Shown here piece by piece: positions 49,523 through 51,364 of a stretch of 64,000 nt of DNA. The stretch is from positions 1 through 64,000 of the forward strand of contig JACOUL010000028.1 of NCBI GenBank assembly GCA_016177875.1, in the 5' to 3' direction. The notes beneath the pieces were generated by a model. It had not been told where the DNA came from. It was given only the letters and a program-made list of their open reading frames with translations, and ran no database searches. The stretch is from Burkholderiales bacterium (lineage in GTDB: Bacteria > Pseudomonadota > Gammaproteobacteria > Burkholderiales > Burkholderiaceae_D). Position 1 is the first letter of the stretch. Every line of letters starts with the position of its first letter. The position numbers were made by a program, and so were the translations under genes.

Positions 49523-49876
49523 TTACTTTTGAAAAATCTGTTGATAGAGGTCGTCGGAAAAGCCGACGTGCGTCGCGGTGTCCGTGCACAGCACAGGGCG
49601 TTTGATGACGGAGGGCTGCTCCAGCATCAAGGCTTTGGCGGCGTCGAGGTCGGTGATCGATGCTTTCATTCCTTCGCTTAAACCGCGCCAGGTTGTGCCT
49701 TTGCGATTGATGAGCGTTTCCCAGCTGACGTGTTTCAGCCAGCCATCGATCAGCAGCAAATTGATGCCGGATTTTTTGAAATCATGAAAAGTGTGCGGCA
49801 CTTTGCGGGCGGCCAGCCATGCGCGCGCCTTCTTGACTTGGTCGCAGTTGGGGATGCCGTACAGGGTATTGGGCAT
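49523..49876 (-). CDS. yffB: ArsC/Spx-like thioredoxin-fold protein YffB
   Basis: A 117-aa protein. 'LYGIPNCDQVKKARAWLAA' has one Cys (CxxVK type) as in YffB and Spx-like proteins, and 'LIDGWLKHVSWETLINRKGTTWR' with 'QPSVIKRPVLC' follows the ArsC fold. It is probably a glutathione-linked thiol protein rather than arsenate reductase. E. coli also has yffB next to dapE. The start at 49876 is preferred; an earlier ATG at 49888 lies inside the terminal repeat of the palindromic element, which now forms the upstream region. Confidence 0.88.
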   Translation of the reverse strand: MPNTLYGIPNCDQVKKARAWLAARKVPHTFHDFKKSGINLLLIDGWLKHVSWETLINRKGTTWRGLSEGMKASITDLDAAKALMLEQPSVIKRPVLCTDTATHVGFSDDLYQQIFQK

Positions 49877-49878
49877 GA

Positions 49879-50227
49879 TAGAACTCATTTCATCGATAAA
49901 CGTGTGTGCGAACGGACTATTTGGGATGGCGCGCTAGGCGTCGTCGCGACGCATGGAGTGGTGCTCCATGCTAGCGGCGCAACAACGCGCGGCGCCCAAA
50001 TAGTCCGTTCCCTCCGGGTTCTGCTCAGAAAGGGCGCTGGCTGCGTTGCGCTCCTTGTCAATAGTCCCGCTATTGGTCGCGTCGCGGCCTTTGCAAGGCG
50101 CGTACTGTCTTGCAAGACAGTACTGCTACGCAGGCAAGCAGCATGCTGCTTGAATTCCCTGCTTCGCCCTTGCCAGTGCCCTTTCTGAGTAGAACGCATC
50201 ATACGTTTATCGATGAAATGAGTTCTA
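49879..50227. mobile_element. MITE-like palindromic mosaic element with 25-bp TA-ended terminal inverted repeats
   Basis: This 349-bp non-coding stretch has perfect 25-bp terminal inverted repeats at 49879-49903 and 50203-50227; the right arm includes GATGAAATGAGTTCTA. Nested dyads: 16 bp perfect (49910-49925 with 49995-50010); 8-bp hairpin GCATGGAG/CTCCATGC (49951-49971); 24 bp with two mismatches (50018-50041 with 50172-50195); CAATAG/CTATTG (50059-50075); 22-nt perfect palindrome (50102-50123); 18-nt perfect palindrome CAAGCAGCATGCTGCTTG (50135-50152). No sizeable gene is evident inside. TA at both outer ends fits Tc1/mariner-IS630-type MITEs such as the Correia/NEMIS element. The right end supplies the pilU stop codon. 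Confidence 0.75.
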
Positions 50228-51364
50228 AACGTTCAAATTGAATTCGGTGAAGGATGCGCCGCCTTCGTTCTCTTCTTCTTTCGGCTCCGGCTTCATGCTC
50301 TTGTCCGACTGCTCGTTGTTGAGCAGCCAGTAAAGGTTGGTGGCGGAGTCGGCGTAAGCAAGACCGTCTTCCTGGGTGATCAAACCTTCCTTGATGAGCT
50401 TCAGCAAAGCTTGCTCGAAAGTCTGCGAACCCGGCGACATACTCTTTTCGATCGCTTCCTTGATCTGGCTCATTTCGCCTTCTTCAATCAATTCGGCAAT
50501 GTGCTGGGTATTGAGCAGCACTTCCACCGCCGGCACGCGCTTGCCGTTGGTGGCCGGTACCAGGCGCTGCGAAACCACAGCGAGAATGGAAGAAGCCAGA
50601 TCCTGCAGCATGGCGCCGCGCGTTTCCAGCGGATAAAAGCCGATGATGCGGTTCAACGCGCGATAGCTGTTGTTGGCGTGCAGGGTGGCTACCACCAAGT
50701 GACCTGACTGTGCGTAACCAAGCGCCGCGGTCATCGTATCCTTGTCGCGGATCTCGCCGATCAGAATGCAGTCTGGCGCTTGGCGCAACGCATTTTTCAG
50801 TGCGATCTGGAGGTTCGCGGCATCGACGCCGATTTCCCGCTGGTTGATGATCGATTTCTTATTCTTGAACAGAAATTCGATCGGGTCTTCCAGCGTAAGG
50901 ATATGCCCGGCCATATTTTCGTTACGGTAGTCGAGCATCGAGGCGATGGTGGTCGACTTACCCGAGCCGGTCGCACCGACTACAAGGATCAGACCGCGTT
51001 TTTGCTTGATCAAATCCAGCAGCACGGCCGGCAGATGTAAGTCTTCCAGCCGCGGAATGGTGCTGGGGATGTAGCGAAACACCGCGGAAATCGTGCCGCG
51101 CTGACGGAAAGCGGAAAGACGGAAGCTGCCGACGCCCGGCACCGGGATGCCCATGTTCAGCTCGCCGTTCTTGTCCAGGTCATCCAGCTGGGTATTGGAG
51201 ACCACCTCCGACAGGAGGGACATGATGGCGCCATTGTCGATTTTCTGTTGATTGATCGCAATCAGGTTGCCATTAATCTTCAGCTGGATCGGTGAGTTGA
51301 CCGCCATGAACATATCCGACGCATTTTTTTCTTGCATCAGCTGAAACAATCGATCCATCGCCAT
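50225..51364 (-). CDS. pilU: Type IV pilus retraction-associated ATPase PilU
   Basis: A 379-aa secretion ATPase. Walker A 'GATGSGKST' is at residues 130-138; the Asp box 'LEDPIEFLFKNKKSIINQREIG', 'ALRQAPDCILIGEIRD' (Walker B) and the His box 'SGHLVVATLHANNSYRALNRII' are present. The C-terminal tail (acidic, 'PKEEENEGG') and N-terminal 'MAMDRLFQLMQEKNASDMFM' are more PilU- than PilT-like. PilU assists PilT in pilus retraction. The start has AAGGAGAGCACC upstream. It stands alone among lysine-biosynthesis genes. Confidence 0.92.
   Translation of the reverse strand: MAMDRLFQLMQEKNASDMFMAVNSPIQLKINGNLIAINQQKIDNGAIMSLLSEVVSNTQLDDLDKNGELNMGIPVPGVGSFRLSAFRQRGTISAVFRYIPSTIPRLEDLHLPAVLLDLIKQKRGLILVVGATGSGKSTTIASMLDYRNENMAGHILTLEDPIEFLFKNKKSIINQREIGVDAANLQIALKNALRQAPDCILIGEIRDKDTMTAALGYAQSGHLVVATLHANNSYRALNRIIGFYPLETRGAMLQDLASSILAVVSQRLVPATNGKRVPAVEVLLNTQHIAELIEEGEMSQIKEAIEKSMSPGSQTFEQALLKLIKEGLITQEDGLAYADSATNLYWLLNNEQSDKSMKPEPKEEENEGGASFTEFNLNV

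Follow-up and report, generated by a model that had tools for sequence, protein, structure and literature searches.

The window, a stretch of 64,000 nucleotides from a Burkholderiales bacterium, holds a group of neighbouring genes that NCBIfam identifies as a PilT/PilU family ATPase (pilU, 50,225 to 51,364, minus strand), an ArsC-family reductase (yffB, 49,523 to 49,876, minus strand), dapE, dapD, dapC and a ribosomal protein L3 glutamine methyltransferase. Between pilU and yffB lies an element of 349 bp (49,879 to 50,227 from TA to TA), which we place on the minus strand, this being both the pilU-yffB direction and the strand on which the arm designated A comes first. The pilU stop codon, TAG, coincides with the element end, and an in-frame ATG within the opposite end (49,886 to 49,888) lies four codons upstream of yffB. 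The element is bounded by terminal inverted repeats (left, 49,879 to 49,906, plus strand; right, 50,200 to 50,227, minus strand) that are perfect over 25 bp and 96% identical over 28 nt. The first-pass annotation had placed the perfect 25-bp repeats, each with an outer TA, at 49,879 to 49,903 and 50,203 to 50,227, and these coordinates are correct. The inner dyads and perfect palindromes that it described are also confirmed: dyads of 16 perfect bp (49,910 to 49,925 with 49,995 to 50,010) and of 24 nt at 92% (50,018 to 50,041 with 50,172 to 50,195), and palindromes of 22 nt (50,102 to 50,123) and 18 nt (50,135 to 50,152). It had also counted at least six further dyads; the four dyads and palindromes just listed were verified singly and the folds display additional ones. 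At 25 bp, the longest inverted repeat in the element exceeds anything in randomly drawn segments of equal length from the window, where the longest was 15 (up to 60 segments, skipping those near the element). Inside the terminal repeats are arm B (49,910 to 50,010, minus strand), with an outer stem of 16 perfect bp, a linker of the form CCC...GGG (CCCTCCGGG, 50,010 to 50,018) and arm A (50,018 to 50,195, minus strand), with an outer stem of 24 nt at 92%; arm A is lengthened by a double-hairpin module (50,088 to 50,165, plus strand), whose boundaries are approximate and were set by eye against an uninserted copy (L011).

Two open reading frames, of 152 aa on the plus strand and 105 aa on the minus strand, overlap most of the element; a Pfam scan at E 0.1 matched neither of them. 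An Rfam identity was sought for the window sequence and rejected, as the sole match (E 1.6) falls outside the element and under the gathering score. Between 49,500 and 50,600 no promoter-like sites were found, and terminator-like sites were absent from the element, with two outside it against a chance expectation of 1.8. Compared with dinucleotide shuffles of both strands, the minus (transcribed) strand folds at -197 kcal/mol (z = -13.1) and the plus strand at z = -16.8, with none of 100 shuffles equal in either case; both strands fold far better than shuffled sequence.

Thirty yffB loci were read, 19 of them with a pilU match, and the pilU-yffB junction was inspected in the window's own genome and in 12 relatives. 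The insert is missing from this junction in all 12 relatives; the yffB start overlaps the pilU stop or lies within about 10 bases of it in eight of them, the spacing is longer in two (L207, L213), and in two (L214, L228) the yffB start could not be placed by eye. Together with the copies of the element found elsewhere, this insert-free site supports the mobile, MITE-like insertion proposed by the first-pass annotation. The window copy has TA at both ends, and removing one TA restores no obvious pilU stop, so that at least one base appears to have changed at this site, or a pilU stop to have been gained. Empty sites were also queried for eight relatives of the element, with 34 genomes searched and 30 loci read. 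Three sites, in a genus matching Herbaspirillum, gave join-spanning alignments (10, 1 and 3), and in all 14 the arrangement is flank-TA-flank, with the single TA at the join that had been predicted for a site lacking the element; the five further queries gave no join-spanning alignment within the 30 loci read. The element at the best empty-site locus carries CA in place of TA at its left end. At the pilU-yffB site the insertion is probably a tolerated passenger, which makes the intercistronic region about 350 nt longer.

Searches with the element and its end against the host genome and the family, a comparison that the first-pass annotation had proposed, returned copies in both. The window element has 17 matches in its own genome (self-matches included), and its end, TAGAACTCATTTCATCAATA, occurs there 19 times at up to three mismatches and not once when read backwards. 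At up to two mismatches the end is present in 42 of 195 genomes of the family, which represent 12 of its 44 genera, including at least genomes named Undibacterium, Herbaspirillum, Herminiimonas, Collimonas and Keguizhuia. A search with the full element at E 0.001 matched 23 of 100 relatives (own genome counted). Among the 102 end-bearing stretches listed, 57 ends have a partner within 4 kb, 24 of these 57 being spaced 267 to 273 bp, and 47 have no partner within reach, many being truncated copies and some due to chance. Lone end matches outside the phylum, for example in Helicobacter and Runella, lack a partner end and look like chance. Plasmid origin or plasmid copies were considered and rejected, as neither the element nor the module has a plasmid match at E 0.001, and the end sequence found nothing better than E 0.9 to 4 in plasmids and phages. 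Among the hits listed, a literature search found no paper on these elements in Oxalobacteraceae.

IS5-family elements with nearly the window's ends are present in other genera, at 857 to 859 bp in G031, G103 and G007 and at 856 bp in G029. The window end agrees with the end of one such element (L194) at 18 of the first 20 bases and differs from the end of the G103 element at 2 of 20; the G103 element and a MITE of G169 have 22 bases in common at the left end and 20 at the right end. In G031 and G103 two overlapping frames together encode the transposase, which in G007 forms a single 267-aa frame. Two of the loci (L195, L192) have frames with DUF4096 and/or DDE_Tnp_1, and all three frames scanned pass the cut-off of NF033580 (NCBIfam IS5), that of L195 at 211 bits. 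The partner element may belong to the IS427 subgroup. Each transposase half is present 12 times in genome G031, with ends seen for four of these copies, and 20 MITE copies were read there, of which 18 are 272 bp long and six identical. The IS5 search of the window's own assembly found no IS with the window's ends, only five contig-end fragments ending in AGAACCTGATCAGTATCTTC, that is, in other ends. The five contigs (C1, C41, C5, C38 and C13) all break off within one IS5-family element or close variants of it, probably a multi-copy IS that broke the assembly. A candidate autonomous copy of 869 bp (L087) was rejected, since it consists of a MITE and adjoining host DNA that runs as far as another end, with no transposase recognised by eye. 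With terminal inverted repeats, dispersed copies, no transposase of its own, an autonomous element with like ends elsewhere and, in its relatives, a target-site duplication seen as the single TA at the join, the element at 49,879 to 50,227 is, as judged from sequence, almost certainly a non-autonomous IS5-family MITE, which the transposase of such an IS5-family element would move in trans.

The architecture of the family was reconstructed from 94 distinct end pairs, 19 of which lack a clear orientation; the 47 oriented ones of 260 to 285 bp supplied 43 elements to a first alignment (A1), 28 of which were picked by eye as less redundant for a second (A2), with one element of wrong orientation call (L006) and one rearranged (L278) among those left out. 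The consensus fold of the 28 elements is a three-way junction made up of the outer stem, arm A, the CCC-GGG linker and arm B, with two arms of about 100 bp in a body plan of about 268 bp, and the linker's two paired columns are invariant in the 28 aligned relatives. Paired cells reach 98.1% in this structure and two-sided changes are found at 54 of 103 pairs, whereas none of 500 shuffles reach 54 pairs, slid structures give 8 to 14 pairs and one-base slides cut paired cells to 36 to 41%, a comparison that favours the structure in that the consensus was derived from the same alignment as was tested. Folded from the arm-A-first strand, the structure has 96 G-T and 28 A-C mismatch cells; folded from the other strand it has 27 and 84, and the consensus energies of the two folds are -155.5 and -149.1 kcal/mol. 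The 89 pairs found on folding either strand have 26 G-T and 26 A-C cells, in 15 and 19 distinct states. Single changes among close pairs number 70 for G-T against 20 for A-C in the one-strand structure, and counts of G-T against A-C for close pairs (32/20 at 93 to 97% identity, 27/18 at 88 to 93%, 63/64 at 80 to 88%) have only a mild G-T lean. We read the one-strand G-T excess as a product of the folding program because it is mirrored on the other strand, and since the mismatches are strand-symmetric, stem pairing looks to be maintained at the DNA rather than the RNA level. Covariation that is very strong but strand-symmetric is a warning against taking covariation in bacterial repeats as proof of structured RNA.

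A covariance model of arm A matched the own genome 35 times, some arms being counted on both strands, and outward extension of the matches delimited full-size elements of 266 to 275 bp with four end types. Type T1 (TAGAACTCATTTCATC) is that of the window and matches an IS5-family element; T2 (AGAACCTGATCGGTATC), with four copies, agrees at 18 of 20 bases with the IS5-family fragments of the own genome; T3 (GGGCCTGTCATCCATTC) and T4 (TAGAGCCTGTTATGA) have no matched IS among the elements read. A fifth type, AGGGCCTGTTCAC, is carried by three 268-bp elements in G031 and matches the right end of an 838-bp IS5-family element of that genome (L396), so that three of the five end types, the window's included, have IS5-family matches. 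The same body plan of about 268 bp carries at least five distinct end types, four of them in the window genome. An 883-bp element in G029 (L397) has ends AGAGCGTCTAACAAAATG matching those of a module-bearing element in L012, a locus that is not among the 35 own-genome arm matches. Arm matches were obtained in five of seven other genomes searched, and none in G002 and G003, two relatives from the same genus. The own genome and G021 also contain elements of about 160 bp that have a single arm and further end types (L331, L336, L338, L342, L343, L345, L380-L385), tied to the two-arm core by the covariance model only.

Bodies and ends were compared separately among these elements. A T2 and a T4 copy (L323 and L328) are 83% identical in the body and 52% in the ends, further T2/T4 pairs have bodies at 80 to 83%, T3/T1 has 71% in the body and 53 to 55% in the ends, and the same-end T1 pair L011/L015 has ends at 85 and 72% and a body at 68%. 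The excess of the T1/T3 bodies is modest because the remaining cross-type bodies, which are less related, reach 60 to 66% global identity. The T2/T4 arms are 87% identical over 100 bp (E 3e-31), and local alignment links the window element to a T3 copy (E 8e-16) and to two T4 copies (E 2e-10 and 5e-9). In BLAST searches restricted to the arms, T2/T4 alone is strong, T1/T5, T4/T5 and T1/T6 match at 4e-5 to 4e-4, against a background of 4 shuffled matches at 1e-3 in 20 rounds, and T1 has no match to T2, T3 or T4 at 1e-3. As the arms-only search does not link T1 and T2, their kinship rests on the covariance model, which also rewards hairpin shape. Several end types begin with an AGRRCCTG-like motif, and for that reason the types are distinct rather than proven unrelated.

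Given that the same core stands under distinct end types, it appears to switch carriers, and from these comparisons repeated changes of carrier by one core are likely. In the mechanism that we favour, the core would pass from one IS5-type carrier to another in two steps: recombination with a different element alters one end, and hairpin-templated copying (template switching in the palindrome at replication) then transfers this alteration to the end opposite. Such templated copying would also preserve pairing within the arms as their sequence drifts. Among 33 sequence pairs of 93 to 97% identity, 69 two-sided Watson-Crick changes are found against 66 single changes in 2935 strand-neutral cells, where by our arithmetic independent change would give about 1.5 two-sided changes; as the sequence pairs are mutually dependent, the counts indicate a direction and are not a test. 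Of 18 equal-length copies compared in G031, two with different backgrounds combine A16C with T257G, and neither change is found by itself in any of them (two copies of other length were left out). Concerted change of this kind would fit end-to-end copying, recombination with another copy, or fast selection for pairing alike, and template copying is put forward only tentatively as the cause of carrier switching. The explanation as a whole, that of an IS5-family MITE with a strand-symmetric covarying core that has changed carrier and sits at pilU-yffB as a tolerated passenger, seems quite likely. Somewhat more speculative is the proposal that the three-way-junction core may be a persisting lineage that parasitises successive IS5-family transposases, swapping its terminal repeats via hairpin-templated copying, for which our confidence falls a little short of even.

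Another origin of the shared core would have it be a separate small mobile element, inserted into the end-only hairpins of several MITE families. End-only hairpins do exist, at 52 bp in two own-genome loci (L149, L150) and at 55 bp in L182, and the 52-bp ones would then be empty carriers; the double-hairpin module likewise shows that second-level nesting occurs. However, the own-genome 52-mers retain a GAGCCCTC stretch that a full copy (L320) also has at its right end, which is expected of deletion remnants, and an unsystematic look saw no duplication around the core. A separate mobile core is accordingly unlikely in our estimation, and the end-only hairpins are probably remnants of elements after arm deletion. 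Very improbable is an origin of the arms or module as REP-type palindromes mobilised by a tyrosine transposase of the REP-associated kind. Of 30 genomes searched, 22 have Y1_Tnp genes, the own genome having one, but in a search for the module none of 30 Y1_Tnp loci holds two of its three motifs and single motifs at one mismatch appear in seven of the 30, so that a REP/RAYT origin of the module is not supported; the ends and TA duplication indicate a DDE transposase.

A further reading is that the pilU-yffB-dapE transcript retains the element as an RNA device, serving as an RNase site, stabiliser or translational uncoupler. The stability of the transcribed strand would suit such a role, as would the loss in the window of the tight pilU-yffB spacing of eight relatives, but the opposite strand folds at least equally well, the pairs common to both strands have equal mismatch cells, and the element is missing at pilU-yffB in relatives. 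Orientation relative to co-directional genes is the same in 18 cases and opposite in 14 (32 of 35 tandem cases with known orientation, on crude ORF calling); by such crude calls the 67 neighbourhoods classed comprise 35 tandem, 25 divergent and 7 convergent. This evidence concerns the family and not the window copy itself, and at that level an RNA role is not supported; we consider retention as an RNA device improbable, and commit to the element being a passenger that IS5-family transposases mobilise. It would be plausible for expression of pilU-yffB-dapE to be affected, because a short spacing has been replaced by about 350 nt of hairpin.

The first-pass annotation had likened the layout to the Correia/NEMIS elements of Neisseria, and as an analogy of layout this stands, although size, core architecture and partner differ. 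Correia/NEMIS are described as having TA-ended 24-bp terminal inverted repeats, target duplication, a stable hairpin transcript and many copies (PMC2229807, PMC10969869), a combination resembling that of the window family. They measure about 107 and 155 bp and pair end to end as a single stem, an architecture that the window element's family, with its 268-bp two-arm junction, does not have, and they have promoter and IHF functions whereas the window element has no promoter-like site. RUP of pneumococcus is likewise a TA-targeting MITE with ends that correspond to those of an IS (PMC2229807), but it is 107 bp long with an IS630 partner, in contrast to the IS5-family partner here. The CIR repeats of Caulobacter and Brucella have two arms joined by a linker (PMC2229807). 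They lack terminal inverted repeats, whereas in the window family an outer stem closes the three-way junction. TIMEs are reportedly mosaic, non-autonomous elements derived from Tn3; they resemble the window family in being non-autonomous and mosaic, but have Tn3-family ends. MITEs are usually viewed as leftovers of one IS; a core persisting under several distinct ends would, if true, represent a different mode of life, in which one structured element uses many transposases. A carrier-switching core also offers a way to test whether bacteria can acquire matching terminal repeats through palindrome-templated copying. The first description of the locus did not include the IS5-family partner, the occurrence of the core with other ends, or the second-level insert.

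The second-level insert is the double hairpin of arm A, on account of which the window copy is longer than most relatives. The module spans about 78 bp, contains the 22-nt and 18-nt palindromes and has the layout CCCTTGCAGGGCGC-hairpin-CGTTACGCAGGC-hairpin-GAATTCCCTGC, with linkers that are fairly constant and palindromes that are copy-specific. Across the loci retrieved there are 24 module matches, two of which duplicate others at identical positions in L037; as similarity guided the choice of loci, the counts are not a census. Copies lie both inside elements (L037, L041, L069, L070, L093) and outside recognised ones (L010/L019, L136), and the module is dispersed over several family genomes (window, L010, L127, L131-L136). 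At one own-genome locus (L019, C11:157200-158200) a stand-alone module sits between two direct repeats of about 37 bp, the repeat including the end of the upstream gene, and in L136 two module copies stand in tandem with a repeated hairpin-rich spacer between them.
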